Below are positions 4,296 to 22,315 of a stretch of 22,315 nucleotides of DNA, in pieces (within the stretch, counting starts at the first letter, position 1; every line of letters starts with the position of its first letter). This stretch comes from a virus. The notes beneath the pieces are model-generated. The model was not told where the DNA came from. It searched no databases and saw only the letters and a list, made by a program, of their open reading frames with translations. The stretch spans positions 1-22,315 of IMG/VR virus record IMGVR_UViG_3300009159_000357. One strand, 5' to 3'. Both the position numbers and the translations under genes were made by a program.

Positions 4296-5450
4296 TTAGG
4301 AATTCGTCACGTCGTCAAAGTCAGAAGCGGTCGCTGACGTAACCAGCGCGGGCCGCTTATCGGATTCGGGTGCCACCGATGGCTGCCCTTCGGATTGGGT
4401 GATAAGGTCTTGGATCTTGGTCCACTGGCGTGGCCCAACGTCCCCGGCCTTGGCCAACTTCTCGATGCTGGTGGGGCTGGCCAGCTTGTAGTCGTACATC
4501 TGGTCGTGCTTGATCCGCATGGACTTCAGCGTCTCCTCTGCGGCGTCCGGGTCGGCCCACTGCCGGTTGCCTTTCTTGCCCTGCACCAACTTGTAGCCGT
4601 GGACTGGCTCACCGGCCAGCAGGCGGCGCTCGACCTCGGCACGCACGGCCTTGACCCACTTCTCGATCATGTCCGCGTTGGCCATGATGCGTGCCAGATC
4701 CCGCTCGTCCGCCGTCTCAGGCACCACGTCGTCAAAGTCGTCCATGATCTGGTTGGTGATGGCCGGGCACGTCGCCTTGGCCCTGCACCACTGGCAACCC
4801 TTCGCGGACACCACCAGCGGGGCATCCGGCTGCCGGGTCAGCTCCGCCGAGACCTGCACCTCTTCCATGAATTCATTCAGCTCGGCCACGGGGATAGTCC
4901 ACTCGGGGCTGGCGTTCAGGCGGGGCTGCACGATCATCATGCGCACGCGCTTGAAATCGTAGGCCAGCTCGTGCTCCACGTAGGCCGCAGCCGCGTACAT
5001 CATGAGCTGCGGGTTTTCCTCGGCGTCCACCGCAACACCCCGGCCAAACTTGGCGTCGATGACGATCAGCTCGTCCATGGTCATGATGACGGCGTCAGCG
5101 GTGCCGTGGGCATCCTCCTCGCCGGTCATGTGCCAGATGGACAGCCGCTGCTCAACCAGCAGCGCACCGCCGGTGGTCACGACAATGTCGCGCACCGTGT
5201 CCACGTAGGTCTGGATCGCCTGCGCCTGCTCGGCCTGCAGGATCAGCCCGGTCTCGGGATCGGTCACGCCGACATACCCGGCCGCGTCTGTGCCCCGGGT
5301 CAGGCAGTGCGCCGACACGGTGTGCATCATCGTGCCTTCCAACGAGGCGTCGGAGCTGGTGTCGGGTATGCCCTCGCACATCCGCACCGAGCCGGGGCAG
5401 GACATCCAGCGCACAGCCGAGCTGGGGGATAGCTGGGCGTGTGCGCTCAT
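4296..5450 (-). CDS. DUF2800 PD-(D/E)XK (RecB/Cas4-like) nuclease
   Basis: This 384-residue protein has a recognisable RecB-type nuclease core: H43 in the EGTMMH helix, D119 in GTADAV, the D132-x-K134 pair in VIDAKFGRG, and Q148 with Y152 in the QLMMYA helix. A C-x2-C-x5-C cluster (C219, C222, C228) plus an N-terminal Cys (C18, in SCPGS) matches the Fe-S arrangement of Cas4 and AddB-type nucleases. It probably processes DNA ends or recombination intermediates during phage replication. The start overlaps the upstream gene by four bases, and DUF2815 follows after 16 bases. The C-terminal third after residue 270 is an accessory region ending in a low-complexity tail. Catalytic residues look intact. 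Confidence 0.9.
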   Translation of the reverse strand: MSAHAQLSPSSAVRWMSCPGSVRMCEGIPDTSSDASLEGTMMHTVSAHCLTRGTDAAGYVGVTDPETGLILQAEQAQAIQTYVDTVRDIVVTTGGALLVEQRLSIWHMTGEEDAHGTADAVIMTMDELIVIDAKFGRGVAVDAEENPQLMMYAAAAYVEHELAYDFKRVRMMIVQPRLNASPEWTIPVAELNEFMEEVQVSAELTRQPDAPLVVSAKGCQWCRAKATCPAITNQIMDDFDDVVPETADERDLARIMANADMIEKWVKAVRAEVERRLLAGEPVHGYKLVQGKKGNRQWADPDAAEETLKSMRIKHDQMYDYKLASPTSIEKLAKAGDVGPRQWTKIQDLITQSEGQPSVAPESDKRPALVTSATASDFDDVTNS

Positions 5451-11085: not shown

Positions 11086-11106
11086 GCCCCTTCGGGGGCA
11101 TCTTTT
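11086..11106 (+). terminator. Intrinsic terminator (GCCCC-TTCG-GGGGC with T-rich tail)
   Basis: A 5-bp GC stem closed by a TTCG tetraloop (11086-11099) is followed by ATCTTTT. It lies 14 bases before the ATG of the DUF932 gene, so that gene is reached only by read-through or a promoter within this short gap. Confidence 0.75.
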
Positions 11107-11119
11107 GAAAGACCTCATC

Positions 11120-11986
11120 ATGATCCGTTTCGCAACCGCTTCCGCTCAGACCACCTTCCGTTCCACGAGCCCCTTGAGCAATGGCCAGATTGCCTACCAC
11201 GCGCCCAGCGTGATGGCCGACGCCGCCCACCACTCCCGTGGTGACCGCTACGCTTTCATCCCCACGATCCAAGTGATCGACGGCCTGCGGGCCGAGGGCT
11301 TCGAGCCCTACGAGATCCGTCAGACCAAGACCCGCAGCGCTGACAAGCGTGAGCACACGAAGCACATGGTGCGCATGCGTCACCTGAGCTCGATTGCCAC
11401 CAGCGAGGAGGTGCCCGAGATCATCCTGCTGAACAGCCATGACGGCAGCTCCAGCTACCAGATCATGTCGGGCGTGTTCCGCTTCGTGTGCTCCAACGGC
11501 CTGATCGCCGGGGACATGTTCAACAACATCCGCGTTCGGCACAGCGGCCGTATCGTGGACGACGTCATCGAGGGCGCGACCCGGGTGCTGGAGGACGCCA
11601 AGCAGATCGGCAGCCGCATCGCTGACTACAAGGCCATCACGTTGGACCACGACGAGCAGGTCGCGTTTGCCAAGGCCGCAGGACAAGCCCGCTGGGGTGA
11701 CGACGCCCCGGTCACGCCTTACCGCATGCTGACGGCCAACCGTTGGCAGGACAACAAGGCCGACCTGTGGACCACGTTCAACCGCGTGCAGGAGAACATG
11801 CTCAAGGGCGGCGTCACCGGGCGCAGCGCTACCGGCCGTCGCATGACGACCCGCGCTGTGGGCGGCGTCACCGAGAACGTGAAGCTCAACAAGGCGCTGT
11901 GGACGCTGGCGGATACCATGGCCGCCCTGAAGCTGGACAAGGCCACCGACCAGTTCGTCGAGGCCCACGAGCACGCCTACCTGTAA
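11120..11986 (+). CDS. DUF932 family protein
   Basis: This 288-residue protein matches the DUF932 family found in phages and plasmids. It contains the typical NSHDGSSSYQIMSGVFRFVC segment (about 105-124) followed by SNGLIAGD and a helical C-terminal half. Its biochemical function is not established; relatives often lie near replication or anti-restriction genes. The start MIRFATA at 11120 is chosen over a TTG at 11105, which overlaps the terminator tail. Its ribosome-binding site is weak. Being directly behind an intrinsic terminator is odd and suggests low or regulated expression. Confidence 0.9.
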   Translation: MIRFATASAQTTFRSTSPLSNGQIAYHAPSVMADAAHHSRGDRYAFIPTIQVIDGLRAEGFEPYEIRQTKTRSADKREHTKHMVRMRHLSSIATSEEVPEIILLNSHDGSSSYQIMSGVFRFVCSNGLIAGDMFNNIRVRHSGRIVDDVIEGATRVLEDAKQIGSRIADYKAITLDHDEQVAFAKAAGQARWGDDAPVTPYRMLTANRWQDNKADLWTTFNRVQENMLKGGVTGRSATGRRMTTRAVGGVTENVKLNKALWTLADTMAALKLDKATDQFVEAHEHAYL

Positions 11987-13958: not shown

Positions 13959-14498
13959 ATGGCAACTAGTAAGAACGGCAAGACGATAGGCCGCCCACCG
14001 GGCGATACGCTCTATCCGAACAAGGAGCAGCTCAAGGACGAGATCGTCGTTTGGGTCTCCAATGGCAAAACGCTGCGCGACTTCTGCCGCCAAGATCACG
14101 CGCCGAGCTTCAGGACAGTCTACGATTGGCTTGCTGAAGACGCCGCGTTCGACTCACGCTTCGCACGTGCGCGGGAAGCAGGCCACGACGTGATCGCAGA
14201 GGAGGCGCTGCACATTGCAGACACCCTGCACGTGGGCCGCAAGGTCACCACGCACAGCGGAGTCAACCCTGACGCAGACGCCGTGACGGTGACCGAAGAG
14301 GACCTGACGCAACACCGCAAGCTGCAAATTGAGACGCGCTTAAAACTGCTGGCCAAGTGGAACCCCAAGAAGTACGGCGACAAGACAGTGCTGGCGGGCG
14401 ACCCCGACGCCCCGGTGAACATCGCCGTGGACTTTGGGCCCTTCGAGCTGATGCTCTCCAACATCGAGCTGCTGCGCCACGATGGGCAACCTAGCTGA
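13959..14498 (+). CDS. terS: Terminase small subunit
   Basis: This 179-residue protein recognises phage DNA for packaging. Residues about 36-64 (GKTLRDFCRQ to TVYDWLAED) form the helix-turn-helix typical of phage TerS proteins, and the segment RLKLLAKWNPKKYGDKT (about 127-143) is a hallmark of one widespread TerS family. It sits directly before terminase large subunit and overlaps it by 17 bases, as expected. A GAAGGGGT site precedes the ATG. The long acidic middle (HSGVNPDADAVTVTEED) is probably a flexible loop. Confidence 0.92.
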   Translation: MATSKNGKTIGRPPGDTLYPNKEQLKDEIVVWVSNGKTLRDFCRQDHAPSFRTVYDWLAEDAAFDSRFARAREAGHDVIAEEALHIADTLHVGRKVTTHSGVNPDADAVTVTEEDLTQHRKLQIETRLKLLAKWNPKKYGDKTVLAGDPDAPVNIAVDFGPFELMLSNIELLRHDGQPS

Positions 14499-15897
14499 AC
14501 TGCTGCGCGATCCGAAGATTCGGGCGCAGTACGCCAAGCTGCCCGCGACGCACCGCGCAGCATTTGCGTGGCGCTCCAAGTGGCTGATGGCCGCGCACAA
14601 GCACCAGCTCGAACCGCCCGGCACGTGGTGGAACATCCACTTGATGGTTGCAGGCCGGGGCGCGGGCAAGACGCGCGCAGCCGCCGAGAACCTCGGCTGG
14701 TGGGCATGGCAGAACCCCAACACCCGGTGGCTGGTGTCAGCCCCAACATCCAGCGACCTGCGCGCCACCTGTTACGAGGGCGATAGCGGGCTGCTATCGG
14801 TGATTCCCCCGGAGCTGATCAGGGACTACAACAAGAGCCTGCACGAGCTGGTGCTGGTGAACGGCAGCCTGATCAAGGGCATCCCGGCCAGTGAGCCCGA
14901 GCGTTTTCGCGGTCCGCAGTTCCATGGCGGATGGCTGGACGAGCTGGCCGCGTGGGACTACCTGCAAGAAAGCTGGGACATGATCATGTTCGGCATCCGG
15001 CTGGGCCATCGCACCAAGCTGATCTGCTCGACCACACCCAAGCCCAAGGACGTGGTGCTGGACCTGATCAGCCGCGAGAACGACGACGTGGTGATCACGC
15101 GCGCCTCGACCTACGCCAATCTTGCCAACCTAGCCCCGTCGTTCCAAAAGCAGATCCTCCAGTACGAAGGCACCAACCTTGGTCGGCAAGAGATACATGC
15201 AGAGATTATTGACCCCGAGGAGGGCGGGATCGTCCAGCGCGACTGGTTCCGGCTATGGCCCGACGGCAAGCCCTTCCCGCGCTTCGAGTACGTGATCCAG
15301 TCCTACGACTGCGGCTACAAGGACAAGGAGGCCAGCGACCCGACCGGCAACATCACGCTGGGCGTGTTCAAGCCGCTGGACGGCGGCATGTGCGTGATGG
15401 TGATCGACTGCTGGCAGGAGAAGCTCACCTACCCCGACCTGCGGCCCAAGATCATTGACGAGTACGAGACCGTGTACGGCGAGGGCAAGGAGAAGAAGCG
15501 CGTGGACCTGCTGCTGGTCGAGGATAAGGCGGCGGGCATCTCGTTGATACAGGACCTGCAACGGGCCGGGCTGCCGGTGCGCGGCTACAACCCGGGCCGG
15601 GCGGACAAGAGCCAGCGCCTGAGCATCGTGGCCAACATCATCAAGGCCGGGCGCGTCTGGGTGCCGGAGAGCAGCGTGCGCAAGGGCTACGTGCGGGACT
15701 GGGCCGAGGGCATGGTCAGCCAGATATGCTCGTTCCCCAACACGGCGCACGACGAGTACGTGGACTGCATCAGCCAAGCCCTGCGCTTTCTGCGCGACGC
15801 GGGCTGGATCAGCATCGACTTCCCCAAGGAGTGGGTGGACGAGGACGACTACATTGACGCGGGCCAGCGCAGCCGCGAGAATCCGTACGCCGCGTAG
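14482..15897 (+). CDS. terL: Terminase large subunit (ATPase/nuclease)
   Basis: This 471-residue packaging motor cuts and pumps DNA into the prohead. The ATPase shows Walker A GRGAGKT (58-64), Walker B with catalytic acid WLDE (151-154), and an ICSTTPKPKD coupling motif (181-190). The RNase H-like nuclease shows D276 in SYDCGYKD, E347/D348 in LVEDKAAG and D424 or D428 in AHDEYVDC. The length is normal and the motifs are complete. The downstream gene starts 29 bases later with a GTG, and the portal appears only after two more large genes. Confidence 0.97.
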   Translation: MGNLAELLRDPKIRAQYAKLPATHRAAFAWRSKWLMAAHKHQLEPPGTWWNIHLMVAGRGAGKTRAAAENLGWWAWQNPNTRWLVSAPTSSDLRATCYEGDSGLLSVIPPELIRDYNKSLHELVLVNGSLIKGIPASEPERFRGPQFHGGWLDELAAWDYLQESWDMIMFGIRLGHRTKLICSTTPKPKDVVLDLISRENDDVVITRASTYANLANLAPSFQKQILQYEGTNLGRQEIHAEIIDPEEGGIVQRDWFRLWPDGKPFPRFEYVIQSYDCGYKDKEASDPTGNITLGVFKPLDGGMCVMVIDCWQEKLTYPDLRPKIIDEYETVYGEGKEKKRVDLLLVEDKAAGISLIQDLQRAGLPVRGYNPGRADKSQRLSIVANIIKAGRVWVPESSVRKGYVRDWAEGMVSQICSFPNTAHDEYVDCISQALRFLRDAGWISIDFPKEWVDEDDYIDAGQRSRENPYAA

Positions 15898-15926: not shown

Positions 15927-18287
15927 GTGACACCACCCATTGAGCAAATGCGTGCCGAAGTGACGGCAAGCAAGGCCAAGAAGGCCAAGACGCCCAAAAA
16001 ACCCAAGCTGCTTGGCGAAGACGAGCAGAAGCGCATCAAGGTCGATGCCGAGGGCTCTGGCGGCGTCAAGGGCATCGTGGTGCCCAAGCACCTGATCGAA
16101 GGCAACCCCAAGGCGTACGCCGAGGGCTTGAAGAACATGATGGCCGCAAGGGCGCAGGTTTACGGCCCTGAGCACCGTGAGCCGCTGACCCTTGGCCAGA
16201 TGGGCAAAATACACAAGCAAGCCCTGCAAGAGCACTTCGACAAGCCATTGCACGAACAGCTTAGCGCGGAAAAAGAAGCGCTGAACCGTATCCGTGCCGC
16301 GAAGTTCATCAAGCCGGACAAAGACACACTGGACGAGTCCGAGAAGCTGGACACCGTGGAGCACGAGCACGACGAGCAGGGCCGGTCCCACGTCGGGTAC
16401 GCGTCCAAAGGCATTGCGGGCCACGCACTGTTCCCCAAGGGGCACGGCGACGACATGGACTACAAAGTCATCAACACCTGCCCCGGTCAGACCGGCGGCT
16501 GCGGTGGCGGGATTGACAAGAACGGCATTGTGGACACGAAGCAAGGCACCTGCTTCGCGCCCAACGCGGAGTCCCAGTACGCAGCCGCCGTGAGCCGCCG
16601 TGCGGGCCACGCCATCGCCAAGCACGATCCGGCCATGACCCGCGACTGGATCATTGCCCACACCGGGTCGATGCGCACTGCCGCCAACAAAGCGGACAAA
16701 AGCAATAAACGCATGCTGTTCCGCCCGAACGTGGTGGACGAGACCGACGTGTCATCCCGTCACGCCATCCGGCATTTGAACGAGCAGCGCAAGGCTGAAG
16801 ACAAACCGGCGATCATTGCCAATTCCTACGGCAAGACCAACGAGCTGCACGACCCGGAGAACGGCTACTACGTCACCCATTCCAACGTCGGCCCGAAGGT
16901 TAAGCACGGGCAAGAGATCACGGAAAACATTGGCCGCGACAAAGCCCGTGTGCGCAACACCGTCATGGCTGCCGACAACCGGGGCGACTTCACGAACGAC
17001 CAAGGAAACAAAACGCCCCCAAGGGGCTCGTACATGGTCACGGACATGAAGCGCGGATCGCCTTTGGCCAAGAGAGCGGAGCAGTCCATCACCCACGCCA
17101 AGTACTGGACCACCGGGCGGCCCGCCAGCGAGTTGTCCGAGGACGAGAAGGCAGAAGGCGAAGAAGGCCACTTCGGCCCTAACGGCAAACCCACAACGCC
17201 TGAGAAGGCGCACTTTGGCCACACCACGCTGAACGACAAGGCTGGCACGCCGTTGCGCTTTGATTACCAGAAGCAGCACGTCCTGCACCCGCGCTTGGTG
17301 AACGTGCCCGAGCGCAAGGAAAACAAAAAGACCGGCAAGACGGAGATGGTCGAGCACATGATTCCGACCGACTCCCGGTTCAAGGACGAGGACTTTTTGC
17401 CCAAGAACCGGTTCAAGACCAAGAACGGCAAAGTGGCTGGCCACATTCTGATGACCACGCCGACAGAGTCCACCAGCAACATTGGCCACCAGACATCGTT
17501 CACCCATCCCGTGAGCCCGGCGCATATTGAACACGCGCTGGCCAACAACGGCGAGTACGTGATGGACAAGCCCGAGGATCAGATAAAGGCCAAGGGCAAA
17601 GAGTACGCTGCCCCACAAGCAATCAAGTTCTACGCCGAAGGCGGCCATGTTGGTGGGCGGCATATTGGCTTCAGCGATGATGACTTCCACTGCTTCCCCG
17701 AGCGGAACGTCGTGGCACAACGCCACTTGGCTATGCGGCGCGGCGACGACGAAGCAGAGATTCGCAAGCCCGTGCGTCAGCCCACCCGCAAGATGGCCGA
17801 CGGCGGCACGGTTGAGCCCGACAAGGACGAGATGCTGGCGGCCCTGATGCTGCGCAGGACGCCCGACTCGGTGAACATCAAGAACGTCGGCGTCAAAGAA
17901 GCACCCGACCTGCCCATCAAGGCGTTCGTGTCGCCCAACGGCGGCAGCGGTACGGGTTTGCCTATCGGCGGCGTGGACTTCCAACCCCTGACGCCCGGCA
18001 ACCAGATGATGCCCATGCCTCAGCCGCAGGGTGGCCTGCCGCCACCGCCCGGACAACCGCCCATGCCACCGCAAGGCGGTATGCCGCCCCCCGGAGCGCC
18101 CGGCGCACCGCCACCAAGGCCCAACCAGCCCCAGAGCAACATCCTTGCCCTGACGCCCCAAGGCCAAGCCATGCAGGCCATGCGGCCAAACCCACAGGCC
18201 ATGCCGCAGCGCCCCGGGCCAACAGGGCCCCGCATGGCGCGCGGCGGATCGACCCATGACATCCACATGACGGAGCGCAAGTTGTGA
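15927..18287 (+). CDS. Large modular protein with Cys motif and A-x-G-G motifs
   Basis: This 786-residue protein lies where a portal is expected, directly after terL. Residues 1-150 are Lys/Glu-rich. Residues about 155-385 contain NTCPGQTGGCGGG (C185, C192), GTCFAP (C209), a RPNVVDETDVS strand (266-276) and IIANSYGKTNE (296-306) followed by NGYYVTHSN (312-320). That series recalls gp88-like phage proteins with a Cys-rich CP...C...CYA motif, but the match is weak. Residues about 690-769 are Pro/Gln/Gly-rich linker. Three motifs, YAEGGHV (569), MADGGTV (623) and MARGGST (770), mark module ends. GGAG lies five bases before the GTG start. Function unknown; packaged or structural polyprotein is possible. 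Confidence 0.7.
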   Translation: MTPPIEQMRAEVTASKAKKAKTPKKPKLLGEDEQKRIKVDAEGSGGVKGIVVPKHLIEGNPKAYAEGLKNMMAARAQVYGPEHREPLTLGQMGKIHKQALQEHFDKPLHEQLSAEKEALNRIRAAKFIKPDKDTLDESEKLDTVEHEHDEQGRSHVGYASKGIAGHALFPKGHGDDMDYKVINTCPGQTGGCGGGIDKNGIVDTKQGTCFAPNAESQYAAAVSRRAGHAIAKHDPAMTRDWIIAHTGSMRTAANKADKSNKRMLFRPNVVDETDVSSRHAIRHLNEQRKAEDKPAIIANSYGKTNELHDPENGYYVTHSNVGPKVKHGQEITENIGRDKARVRNTVMAADNRGDFTNDQGNKTPPRGSYMVTDMKRGSPLAKRAEQSITHAKYWTTGRPASELSEDEKAEGEEGHFGPNGKPTTPEKAHFGHTTLNDKAGTPLRFDYQKQHVLHPRLVNVPERKENKKTGKTEMVEHMIPTDSRFKDEDFLPKNRFKTKNGKVAGHILMTTPTESTSNIGHQTSFTHPVSPAHIEHALANNGEYVMDKPEDQIKAKGKEYAAPQAIKFYAEGGHVGGRHIGFSDDDFHCFPERNVVAQRHLAMRRGDDEAEIRKPVRQPTRKMADGGTVEPDKDEMLAALMLRRTPDSVNIKNVGVKEAPDLPIKAFVSPNGGSGTGLPIGGVDFQPLTPGNQMMPMPQPQGGLPPPPGQPPMPPQGGMPPPGAPGAPPPRPNQPQSNILALTPQGQAMQAMRPNPQAMPQRPGPTGPRMARGGSTHDIHMTERKL

Positions 18288-21142
18288 GCTTTTATTCCCC
18301 TATCGACCGGCTGGCCCAAAACCTACCCCGTCCCAAGGGGACCGGCGCGGAGTTTATGACCGAGTTGAGCAAGATGCCCGGCTACAAGGCGCAAGAGGCC
18401 GAGGACCGTGGGCTGCAAGCGCTGACGAACCTGCCTAAAATGGAGCGGGCGCAGTTCATGGAGGCGTTGAAGAGCAAGCCGCCGGTGGTGCCTCAAACGC
18501 ACGAGTTGAGTGGCGACTACGGTGGCTACGAGCCTCATCACGAACAGTACACACTGCCGGGCGGAACCAACTACCGTGAAATATTGTTGCAGCACCCAAA
18601 GGGCGCATTTAAGGGCGTAGAGCACCACTTCGATGGCACGCCAAACATATTGGCCAGCGTCCGCGTTAAGGACCGTATGGTTCCCGGCGAGATGGGTTAC
18701 ACCTTGCGCAACAAAACATCGGGATTTAAGAGCCGCCATCACAAAACGCTAGAAGAAGCGCAGGCTTCGATACAAAACTATCCAGAACATTTTCGTTCCA
18801 CGTTGGACGTGGTGCCTAATAAAGGCCCAGACAAAAAAATACTGCACATTGAAGAGCTGCAATCCGATTGGCATCAGCAGGGGCGCGACAAAGGCTACAC
18901 GCCGCCTGATGTTGCCAAGCAAATAAGTGCGGCAGAGCGTACGCATCGGGAGTTGCAACGACAATTAAATGAGGCCAAACAAAATGCGGCTTTTGTGGAA
19001 AGTGGTTTAAGCGATCCAACAACAAAACGGATGCGAGATTTGAATCCTGAAATGATTCAGCGCTTGGAAGCGTCCAAAATTAAGCACAACAACACCATCA
19101 TGGAACTGCTTCCGCAGGTCATGAAGGCCGAGGCCGCGCACCAAGACCTGCTGCATCAGTCAAAAAACACCGTGCCCGATGCCCCGTTCAAAAAGAACTG
19201 GCATGAGATGGCGCTCAAAAAGATGATTCACCATGCCGCCGCCAACGGCTACGACGCCATCGCCATTACGCCGGGACGAGAGCAAGCGGATCGGTATGGA
19301 CTGGCCCAACACGTTGGCCTTATCAGGCATATGACGCACGGAGATAATCCCAATAGCGGAATCTTGTTTGCTTATGACCCACAAGGTAATCAAATAGTGC
19401 GAGAAGACGATGTGCCACACGAAAAACTATCTGAGTACATTGGCAGAGAAGGCGCTAAAAAACTCATGGATCAAAAACCGGATGGCGTTGGGTATCGTGA
19501 ATTAAGTGGAGAAAACCTTCAAGTTGGTGGCGAAGGCATGAAAGGCTTCTACGACAAGATTGTGCCCAACTTCCTGAACCAGTTCGGAAAGAAATACGGC
19601 GCAAAGGTCGGGCAGATTCAAGTGCCTGTCGTGCATGCACTTCAAGGGCTTAGGCGAGTAAATAATTACCCAGACGATCCACCGTTGACCCTGCACCACT
19701 TCCCCATCACCCCAGAGATGCGCGAGGACGTGGTGAAGAACGGCGTGCCGTTGTACGCCAAGGGCGGCGGGGTTGAGGTCAAGCCCACGGTGAAGGACGA
19801 GACAATCCAACGCAAGATTCCCGAGATGGAAGAAGCGGCCAAGGCCCTGCAAGCCGGGACCATCACCCGGGCGCAGTACGACAAGGTAGTCAAGCAACAC
19901 AAGCCCGTAAAACCCTACGAGTTCGTGCCGCAACCCGCCACGGACGAGGACGCAGAACGTGCGTTGATGGCCAACAAGAAGGCGCAATGGCGCGGGCACG
20001 AGCAGTGGCCCGCTGGCCGCAAGGTCGGATTGCGTTTGGACATCCCGGCGTACGAGAACCACGGCGTGTGGGTTAATTCCATCCACGACGAAGAGGGCAA
20101 CGGCGAGGACAAGTACCCGACCGCGTACAACTCGGTGTCATCGGTAAAGAACGCCACGTTCGACGCCAAGCCGGAAAAGGCTGTGCGCGTGGCCACTGGT
20201 GAGCAAAACAAGTCACCCTTTGCCCGCATCCGTGGTGAGCTGCACCACATGACCGAGGACGAGGCGGTGGAGCACATGAAGGCCCACCTGAACCACCCGG
20301 ACTACGTGCAGGTTGGCATGGACCCGCGCAGGCACGGCTACTTCTACGACCGCAAGACCATGAAGCCAATCACCCATTCTGCCCACGTGGTGCAGATTGG
20401 CCCGTTGGTACTGGCGCACAAGCCCACCTATGGCAAGCGCGAGACCTACGCCAAGGGCGGTGACGTTCACTCTGGTGGACCGGAGATGGGCATCAATGTC
20501 CGGTCGGACAAAAAAGCAAATTTGCAATACGCCGATTTGATCGTCGATGGCCACAAAACATACGAGTCCCGCAACGGCGACACGCTGCGCCCTTATGTTG
20601 GCAAGCGGGTGTCCATAGTGCGCACTGGAGATGGCCCGGCCAAGGCCATAGGCGCGGTCACTGTCGGTGAGCCCATAGTCGTGGACCGCAAGAAATTTCG
20701 CAAAATGGAAAAACAACATCTGGTGCCCGAAGGATCGGCATTTGATATTGCCAGCGGAACCAAGCACCTGTACCCGATGCACGAGCCAGAGCGCTCTGAG
20801 AGCGAAAGGGACGTTGGCCACGGCATTGTGGCGCGCAAGGTCCACATGGCCGACGGCGGACCCGTGCCGCCTCTGCGTCCACTGAATCCCCAGCTTGCTG
20901 CGCTGCGTGAGCAATTTGCCGCACAGTCCGCGTTGCACAAGGCGTACAACGAGGCCATGAAGAACGTGTACACCAACCAGATGCCGACTTTCAAAGATTG
21001 GGTGGCGTCGCAGGGCAAGGCCAAGGGCGGCAGCATCAAGCCGGTCGGCTACACTAAAGAGCAAGTTACAGTTTCACCAAATCTCGACGCCATGCGCTAC
21101 GAGCTGATGAGCGTGAAACGCTACACTAAGAAGGTTAAATGA
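18284..21142 (+). CDS. Large polyvalent-type multidomain protein
   Basis: This 952-residue protein strings together modules known from phage polyvalent proteins. Residues 1-70 (PRPKGTGAEFMTEL, then MPGYKAQEAEDRGL) form an N-terminal helical module. Residues 182-490 carry ILHIEELQSDW, APFKKNWHEMALKKM and YDAIAITPG and end in FPITPEMR. Residues 575-715 form a beta-rich module (KVGLRLDIPAY to QIGPLVLAHKP) with YFYDRKTMKP. Residues about 740-840 resemble an ASCH domain (LIVDGHKTYESR). Motifs YAKGGGV (491), YAKGGDV (722), MADGGPV (855) and KAKGGSI (912) separate the modules. Start is a GTG overlapping the previous stop. Polyvalent proteins are thought to be injected with DNA against host defences; the role here is inferred. 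Confidence 0.8.
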   Translation: MSFYSPIDRLAQNLPRPKGTGAEFMTELSKMPGYKAQEAEDRGLQALTNLPKMERAQFMEALKSKPPVVPQTHELSGDYGGYEPHHEQYTLPGGTNYREILLQHPKGAFKGVEHHFDGTPNILASVRVKDRMVPGEMGYTLRNKTSGFKSRHHKTLEEAQASIQNYPEHFRSTLDVVPNKGPDKKILHIEELQSDWHQQGRDKGYTPPDVAKQISAAERTHRELQRQLNEAKQNAAFVESGLSDPTTKRMRDLNPEMIQRLEASKIKHNNTIMELLPQVMKAEAAHQDLLHQSKNTVPDAPFKKNWHEMALKKMIHHAAANGYDAIAITPGREQADRYGLAQHVGLIRHMTHGDNPNSGILFAYDPQGNQIVREDDVPHEKLSEYIGREGAKKLMDQKPDGVGYRELSGENLQVGGEGMKGFYDKIVPNFLNQFGKKYGAKVGQIQVPVVHALQGLRRVNNYPDDPPLTLHHFPITPEMREDVVKNGVPLYAKGGGVEVKPTVKDETIQRKIPEMEEAAKALQAGTITRAQYDKVVKQHKPVKPYEFVPQPATDEDAERALMANKKAQWRGHEQWPAGRKVGLRLDIPAYENHGVWVNSIHDEEGNGEDKYPTAYNSVSSVKNATFDAKPEKAVRVATGEQNKSPFARIRGELHHMTEDEAVEHMKAHLNHPDYVQVGMDPRRHGYFYDRKTMKPITHSAHVVQIGPLVLAHKPTYGKRETYAKGGDVHSGGPEMGINVRSDKKANLQYADLIVDGHKTYESRNGDTLRPYVGKRVSIVRTGDGPAKAIGAVTVGEPIVVDRKKFRKMEKQHLVPEGSAFDIASGTKHLYPMHEPERSESERDVGHGIVARKVHMADGGPVPPLRPLNPQLAALREQFAAQSALHKAYNEAMKNVYTNQMPTFKDWVASQGKAKGGSIKPVGYTKEQVTVSPNLDAMRYELMSVKRYTKKVK

Positions 21143-22315
21143 TGGCAGACCAAGACGACGACCTGAACGACCCCGAGCTGAACGAAGACGGATCGGCGGA
21201 CGTTGAGCTGCCCGAGGACATTTCCGACGTCGTGGAGATGCCAGACGGCTCTGCCGTGGTGAGCATGGACACCACCGGCCCAGAGGAGTCGCCTGACTTC
21301 TACGCCAACATGGTTGAGACCATGGACAGCTACGAGCTAAACAGCTTGGGCATGCGCTACGTCAACCTGCTGGACAAAGACAAGAACGCCCGCGAGGAGC
21401 GCGACAAGCAGTACGAAGAGGGCATGAAGCGCACCGGGCTGGGCAAGGACGCCCCCGGCGGAGCCAACTTCTACGGCGCATCCAAGGTGGTGCATCCGGT
21501 CATGGCCGAAGGCTGCGTGGACTTTGCGTCCCGTGCCATCAAGGAGCTGTTCCCACCGGACGGCCCGGTCCGCACCAAGATCATTGGTCAGGTTGACGAC
21601 CTGAAGACGCAGCGGGCCGAGCGCAAGCGCGACTTCCTCAACTGGCAGATCACCGAGCAGATCGAAGAGTTCCGCGACGAGCAGGAGCAGATGCTGACCC
21701 AGCTACCATTGGGCGGATCGCAGTTCCTAAAACTTTGGTACGACGAGCAGAAGAAGCGCCCGACGGTGGAATTCCTGCCCATCGACCGCGTGATCCTGCC
21801 CTTTGCGGCCACCAATTTCTACACCGCCCAACGTGCGGCCGAGGTCCACGAGATCACCGAGTGGGAATACAACCGGCGCGTGGCCAGCGGCATGTACATC
21901 GGCGGCTCCAACCTGACCAGCGGCCAAGAGCCCGAGCAGAGCCGCCCGCAAAAAGCCAACGACAAGATTGAGGGAAAGCAGTTCCAAGACAACGACGACG
22001 GTCTGCGCAAGGTCTACCACATATACGTGTTCTTGGAGTTTGAGGACGACAACGAAACCAAGGGCGAGATGGCTCCGTACATCATGATGGTGGACGAGCA
22101 AAGCTCCGAGGTCATCGGCCTGTACCGTAACTGGGAAGAGGGCGACGAGACGATGACCAAGCTCGATTGGATCATCGAGTTCAAGTTCATCCCATGGCGC
22201 GGCGCCTACGCCATCGGCCTGCCGCACCTGATTGGTGGATTGTCCGCAGCACTGACCGGCGCACTGCGCGCTTTGCTGGACTCGGCGCACATCAACAACG
22301 CGGCGACCATGCTCA
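21139..22315 (+). CDS. Portal protein, N-terminal part (runs off the window)
   Basis: The 392 visible residues begin with an acidic low-complexity leader (MMADQDDDLNDPEL) and continue with portal-type segments: FYGASKVVHPVMAEG, an acidic-basic helix DEQEQMLTQLPLGGSQ, YDEQKKRPTVEFLPI, and KFIPWRGAYAIGLPHLIGG close to the window end, which matches the wing/stem transition of large phage portals. The start ATG overlaps the previous stop by four bases. The portal is the dodecameric entry ring for DNA. The C-terminus lies beyond the right edge, so total size and tail type cannot be judged. The unusual point is its distance from terL (5.2 kb). Confidence 0.85.
   Translation, partial: MMADQDDDLNDPELNEDGSADVELPEDISDVVEMPDGSAVVSMDTTGPEESPDFYANMVETMDSYELNSLGMRYVNLLDKDKNAREERDKQYEEGMKRTGLGKDAPGGANFYGASKVVHPVMAEGCVDFASRAIKELFPPDGPVRTKIIGQVDDLKTQRAERKRDFLNWQITEQIEEFRDEQEQMLTQLPLGGSQFLKLWYDEQKKRPTVEFLPIDRVILPFAATNFYTAQRAAEVHEITEWEYNRRVASGMYIGGSNLTSGQEPEQSRPQKANDKIEGKQFQDNDDGLRKVYHIYVFLEFEDDNETKGEMAPYIMMVDEQSSEVIGLYRNWEEGDETMTKLDWIIEFKFIPWRGAYAIGLPHLIGGLSAALTGALRALLDSAHINNAATML

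Follow-up and report, generated by a model that had tools for sequence, protein, structure and literature searches.

Polyvalent proteins of phages combine 2–15 distinct domains in one polypeptide, are encoded together with head and packaging genes and are carried in the virion (Iyer et al., 2017, PMC5512222). An embedded MPTase peptidase is present in about 36% of them and is not obligatory; DdrB of phage P1, itself a polyvalent protein, is reported to be processed before packaging, and the N4 vRNAP is packaged unprocessed (PMC5512222). Shuffling of modules is a known property of this multidomain class. Two further systems are instructive here. At the VENN junction of CdiA, a short conserved peptide is followed by abrupt sequence divergence and effector modules are exchanged (PMC3150448). 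The capsid targeting sequence of the T4 internal proteins and the localization signal of P1 DarB are constant N-terminal peptides that direct packaging (PMC12373910, PMC9024508).

The gene pair and its relatives

The window analyzed here is the whole 22,315-base record of a viral contig, which is a phage fragment only, with the portal gene interrupted where the contig ends. Two genes that overlap by 4 bases are situated directly between those for the terminase large subunit and the portal:

14482..15897, + strand, terminase large subunit (PF03237, 9.2e-25)
15927..18287, + strand, P0001, putative polyvalent-type protein of 786 aa (open reading frame, module architecture)
18284..21142, + strand, P0002, putative polyvalent-type protein of 952 aa (open reading frame, module architecture)
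21139..22315, + strand, portal protein, truncated by the window end (phrog_1216, 9.7e-11)

Cut at the motifs described below, P0001 consists of M3 (GP88-like), M5, M1 and a type I tail, and P0002 of M2, M6 (L5 gp82-like), M12 (ASCH), M8 and a type II tail. The ASCH match of P0002 (PF04266, 1.7e-6) lies over the cut-off, the GP88 match of P0001 (PF17338, E 8.5e-5, 22.9 bits) lies under the cut-off of 24.4, and the gp82-like match of P0002 is weak. A Foldseek search with the P0002 model returned no match at E<=0.001, and profile searches of the PDB with the P0001 and P0002 families returned no convincing relative.

Matches in viral contigs were found at 9 loci for the 786-aa protein and at 79 loci for the 952-aa protein, and similar GenBank phage records number one and seven, respectively. 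The two window proteins share with the described class the presence of several domains per polypeptide and the location with head and packaging genes, and are on these sequence grounds assigned to the polyvalent type in the sense of PMC5512222, with the qualification that the class-typical ART-PolyVal, LPD23, GNAT, M15 and PcfJ-like domains occur in the relatives and not in the window's own pair, while ASCH occurs in both. A contig with a 96% identical terminase carries ART-PolyVal in the corresponding protein. The MPTase-PolyVal family (PF18818) matched none of 12 records and likewise gave no match in the control genomes. By analogy with the literature on the class (PMC5512222), the pair would travel inside the virion and enter the host at infection.

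Several neighboring features were recorded alongside. The replication-recombination region of the window encodes DUF932 and DUF2800/PDDEXK proteins (11105-11986 and 4296-5450). An SPFH/Band 7 protein and a ketoacyl-synthase-like protein are encoded by the GenBank relative MW202545 (L088), as is a Tad2-like domain of the Thoeris anti-defence type. One acidic element, DGSA[DT]V[ED]LPE, is common to the portal N-terminus (window:21139-21270) and a scaffold-like protein (L071:11792-12781, L026:8827-9684) and is possibly another assembly peptide shared by these two proteins.

A conserved seven-residue joint

A first-pass annotation of this DNA had listed seven A-x-G-G motifs in the two adjacent proteins, and all of them were recovered:

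17631..17651, + strand, joint YAEGGHV in P0001; A, G, G and V do not vary in orthologues with the motif
17793..17813, + strand, joint MADGGTV in P0001 (shuffle test, orthologue conservation)
18234..18254, + strand, joint MARGGST in P0001, leading into the type I tail
19754..19774, + strand, joint YAKGGGV in P0002, end of module M2; the next module varies between phages
20447..20467, + strand, joint YAKGGDV in P0002, between M6 and the ASCH module
20846..20866, + strand, joint MADGGPV in P0002, 20 residues past the ASCH domain
21017..21037, + strand, joint KAKGGSI in P0002, leading into the type II tail

At the V position, T is found in MARGGST and I in KAKGGSI. For the consensus given in the first-pass annotation, seven matches compare with 0.008 expected and none of 5,000 within-protein shuffles reaches seven, a test that is post hoc because the consensus had been built from the same seven motifs; for the plain pattern A.GG, 1.15 matches are expected and one of 5,000 within-protein shuffles reaches seven. 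The relatives provide an independent replication. In the open reading frames of their loci, A.GG.[VI] was observed 225 times vs. 14.6 times in shuffles, and control patterns such as A.AA, A..GG and V.GG were without comparable excess. The shuffles and the enrichment in relatives together rule out chance or composition as the source of the motif. From the aligned contexts of the relatives, the sharper consensus [KYMLF]-A-[KED]-G-G-[SA]-V was obtained.

At the first joint in orthologues of P0001 that have the motif, A, G, G and V are 100% conserved, compared with an identity of 28% at the x position and of 30–70% at many flanking ones. Invariant A, G, G and V residues around a free x position point to selection on the peptide; the joint is conserved at the protein level. 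Codon identity at the motifs is somewhat over the expectation from codon usage (0.57 vs. 0.42 for the first Gly), which leaves room for a DNA-level contribution to the conservation of the motif. The excess is modest, and on this ground simple copying of a DNA repeat was rejected as the origin of the motif.

The joint as a boundary of module exchange

Placement of the motifs at module ends or in linkers, as proposed from the sequence alone, agrees with structure prediction, domain matches, alignment breakpoints and individual junctions. In the AlphaFold model of P0002, two motifs (residues 492 and 723) are found in stretches with pLDDT<50 (490-512 and from 719 on) that are directly preceded by folded regions. 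None of the motifs lies inside the 21 Pfam domain hits, where 9.3 would be expected, and the ART domain is followed by a motif after 11-12 residues in all seven of seven cases. A setting inside the domains themselves, in a common fold or beta-hairpin that escapes sequence comparison, would have to hide in poorly known domains, and the model of P0001 is too poor for judging where its motifs are placed. This reading is largely refuted by the Pfam count, by the low-confidence placement in P0002 and by the joining of the same motif to unrelated domains, and we consider it very improbable.

In an all-against-all comparison, 22.9% of internal BLAST ends have a motif no more than 8 aa away, compared with 6.0% +/- 0.6 for shifted positions, counts that are phylogenetically non-independent and may be inflated where a conserved motif itself holds an alignment end. 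The latter concern is answered in part by the control with other Gly-Gly sites (breakpoint ratio of 1.03 vs. 3.87 at A-x-G-G) and by the listing of junctions. Redundant relatives as the origin of the result were likewise rejected, as the effect stays after redundancy removal: in the non-redundant set, 18.5% of breakpoints are near a motif vs. 5.8% at shifted positions, with a maximum of 7.7% over 300 shifts. Nor do all Gly-Gly or Pro-rich linkers mark boundaries equally, as other Gly-Gly sites have no breakpoint excess and Pro-rich ones have slightly fewer breakpoints. The placement at module boundaries put forward in the first-pass annotation is strongly supported by the breakpoints, the domain hits and the junctions.

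The junctions themselves are explicit. In the close clade, M2 ends in ITPEMREDVxKNGVPLYA[KDE]GG, and the GG is followed by M6, M11, M8, M12, M1 or directly by the tail, depending on the phage. Other M2 architectures among the relatives comprise M2 and M11 with a tail at the end of a longer string, M2 with M8 and tail, and M2 with tail only. Relatives of P0001 have the order M18, M1, M3, M5, compared with M3, M5, M1 and tail in the window, and the relative in MW202545 has the same blocks permuted at the motif. These observations show that the joint is the unit boundary of module exchange between phages. Distant M2 relatives are without the GG joint and still end in the tail, so that the role of the tail, whatever it is, does not strictly depend on the joint.

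Such a pattern could also arise if the motif were a permissive flexible linker that recurrent recombination retains and that does not itself take part in binding, comparable to VENN in CdiA. The clustering of breakpoints at the motif, its position in low-confidence and probably flexible regions of P0002, and the codon identity above expectation are in line with this explanation. However, flexibility alone needs less than the complete conservation of A, G, G and V with a free x seen in orthologues of the same architecture, and the DNA-level excess is small. We regard a purely neutral linker as unlikely, all the more so in light of where else the motif occurs (see below).

Possible cleavage at the joint

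Double glycines are a known cleavage signature in other systems. The first-pass annotation proposed, as one of two readings, a polyprotein whose modules are released by proteolysis; a host or phage protease would cut after Gly-Gly before or after injection, as in the maturation of T4, adenovirus and ASFV. In a reasonable variation, the tail would be removed once packaging is complete. The location of motifs in linkers between complete domains would suit such a scheme, and so would the reported processing of the polyvalent protein DdrB (PMC5512222). The evidence from the relatives does not support it. Two near-complete relatives, G003 and MW202545, were scanned with Pfam and PHROG, and no capsid-maturation, C39-like or other Gly-Gly protease is among the matches listed. 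To this extent, the Cys protease gene outside the window that the first-pass annotation had suggested looking for was not found. Targeted searches for Peptidase_S78 and ClpP were negative in all 12 records with positive controls working. The capsid protein matches just the capsid part of protease-capsid fusions, and the M15 and transglycosylase matches are peptidoglycan enzymes. In addition, no more than 3-13 residues separate several motifs from the C-terminus, and a cut there would free only a short peptide; together with the failure to find a protease, this leaves cleavage without support. The packaging of N4 vRNAP in unprocessed form is a further counterexample (PMC5512222). Processing at the joint thus appears improbable.

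Constant C-terminal tails and a second element

Both proteins end in a peptide that the first-pass annotation had missed:

18249..18284, + strand, type I C-terminal tail STHDIHMTERKL of P0001; 41 such tails among 613 long genes
21032..21139, + strand, type II C-terminal tail SIKPVGYTKEQVTVSPNLDAMRYELMSVKRYTKKVK of P0002; near-invariant in relatives

In a census of 613 genes of at least 250 aa, type I tails (xDIxLxERxL) terminate 41 genes, every one of which encodes a GG-motif protein, and type II tails (DxMxxEL, then basic residues) terminate 44. Sorted by locus, 27 have type I followed by type II, 31 have one tail only and no locus carries the same type twice. Several forms fused into a single gene terminate in the type II tail. 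The tail type is independent of module content. A constant terminal peptide on otherwise unrelated cargo is a hallmark of capsid-targeting signals that the tails share, and the N-terminal position of such signals is one that they do not, as they are C-terminal. By this analogy, the tails are candidate packaging signals.

A helix-like element, DxMRxEL, likewise went unnoticed in the first-pass annotation. In the window, it is represented by three sequences:

15942..15962, + strand, EQMRAEV, at the N-terminus of P0001 (family enrichment)
17826..17846, + strand, DEMLAAL, shortly after joint MADGGTV
21086..21106, + strand, DAMRYEL, inside the type II tail

DxMRxEL was counted 114 times vs. 4.4 expected; 72 of the 114 elements lie within 28 aa after a GG motif, and some are found at N-termini. 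In scans of whole phages, the element is nearly confined to the two polyvalent genes. DxMRxEL is often the second element after a joint.

Occurrence of the motif in other virion proteins

The strict motif belongs, in near-complete relatives, largely to products of virion genes. It is found in the polyvalent pair, at scaffold-like N-termini, in the C-terminal parts of long late proteins and in a capsid-proximal protein. The few single matches outside virion genes, such as LAIGGSIG in a hydrophobic stretch, look like chance. The capsid-proximal protein is encoded two genes from the capsid gene, comprises 305–449 aa and is a string of [AK]xGGxV repeats between a fixed N-terminus, MGQFKPMVKM, and a usually fixed C-terminus, KRGGSxKC; one member was scanned and had no Pfam or NCBIfam match.

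L088:37304-38650, repeat protein near the capsid gene
L103:6020-7255, repeat protein near the capsid gene, A5 member
L095:10940-12136, repeat protein near the capsid gene, A5 member (further A5 members exist)

The presence of the motif close to C-termini, at scaffold-like N-termini and, repeated, in this protein speaks against a neutral linker between exchangeable modules.

In some small proteins, the sequence closes with GG and a few basic or aromatic residues (FKKGGKVNW, KAAGGRVSW, KAFGGKVKKSCW), which would resemble use of the joint as a tag at the C-terminus:

L088:35984-36496, small GG-ending protein
L002:4304-4543, small GG-ending protein
L095:9136-9879, small GG-ending protein

Separately, an element GDGQSDDIPAWLADGEFVFPADVV was observed in late virion proteins of L098, L102, L105, L107 and L115 and in the L124 tape measure protein; it is very similar to the element GTSDSIPAxLSNGEYV known from tape measure proteins.

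Discussion

The reading that we prefer, and to which we give an even chance, is that these proteins are strings of modules with a standard joint and two constant tails, and that joint and tail are uncleaved docking peptides of proteins packed into the head and injected. The polyvalent-type pair would be loaded into the head and accompany the DNA on injection, and [KYMLF]-A-x-G-G-x-V would be the standard joint from module to module and from the last module to the tail. As uncleaved docking or hinge peptides, joint and tail might make any module loadable into the procapsid via a shared loading partner, which could be the capsid, the scaffold or the portal, and at infection the loaded modules would be threaded out. 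As all modules share one terminal joint, recombination at joints between phages would yield working proteins, which in turn would allow the anti-host payload to be swapped quickly.

The step from a joint to a packaging or docking peptide is suggested by tails that stay constant whatever the cargo, by the T4 and P1 precedent and by the sharing of the motif with the capsid-proximal protein. The alternative function put forward in the first-pass annotation, a shared sorting tag for packaging, gains indirect support that falls short of proof from the fixed C-terminal tails, the near-restriction to virion genes and the capsid-proximal repeats; its interpretation as a whole is partly supported. Against a docking role, it has to be considered that placement at module boundaries is also predicted if the motif is a flexible linker or a product of recombination only, that distant M2 relatives keep the tail without the joint and that codon identity at the motifs is somewhat over expectation. 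We more tentatively suggest that the proteins are plug-in cargo of tailed phages, in which effector modules on AxGGxV joints, often with DxMRxEL, would be loaded into the capsid in any combination by the joint together with one of the two tails, type I on the first gene and type II on the second. In that case, anti-host functions for injection would pass between phages in cassette form. Joint and tails provide a sequence rule for splitting polyvalent proteins into modules, a means of finding new injected effectors in metagenomic data and, in the tails, two concrete candidates for packaging signals.

Comparison with known systems

With the polyvalent proteins (Iyer et al., 2017, PMC5512222), the pair shares large size, multidomain composition, proximity to head genes and shuffling of modules between phages, and its relatives share the ART-PolyVal, LPD23, GNAT and M15 domains. 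The words “glycine” and “linker” are absent from the text of PMC5512222, in which no description of a standard joint peptide or of paired constant tails was found. A search of the open-access literature found no description of the joint and no relevant paper on the motif or tape-measure strings, which, given the open-access scope, is weak evidence of novelty.

Tape measure proteins, which occupy the virion lumen, contain an element, [FY]AxGGxVxGPGTGTSDSIPAxLSNGEYV, that opens with the seven-residue pattern of the joint. An approximate consensus of the element matches 1,683 phage records, most of the annotated ones being tape measure proteins, and the element is present in the sequences of the solved entries 8zdo and 8rk3. 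However, it is longer than the joint and continues differently.

The internal proteins of T4 and DarB of P1 are unrelated anti-restriction proteins with one constant terminal peptide, comparable to the tails described here. Their signals are N-terminal, whereas the tails of the present pair are C-terminal and of two types, one per gene. By analogy, these tails may have a packaging role.

The closest precedent for the logic of exchange is the VENN junction of CdiA, where homology likewise stops abruptly at a short motif and unrelated modules come next (PMC3150448). In CdiA, a single C-terminal toxin follows the junction, whereas the phage joint is repeated, its modules are strung together and permuted, and the constant part is the C-terminal tail.
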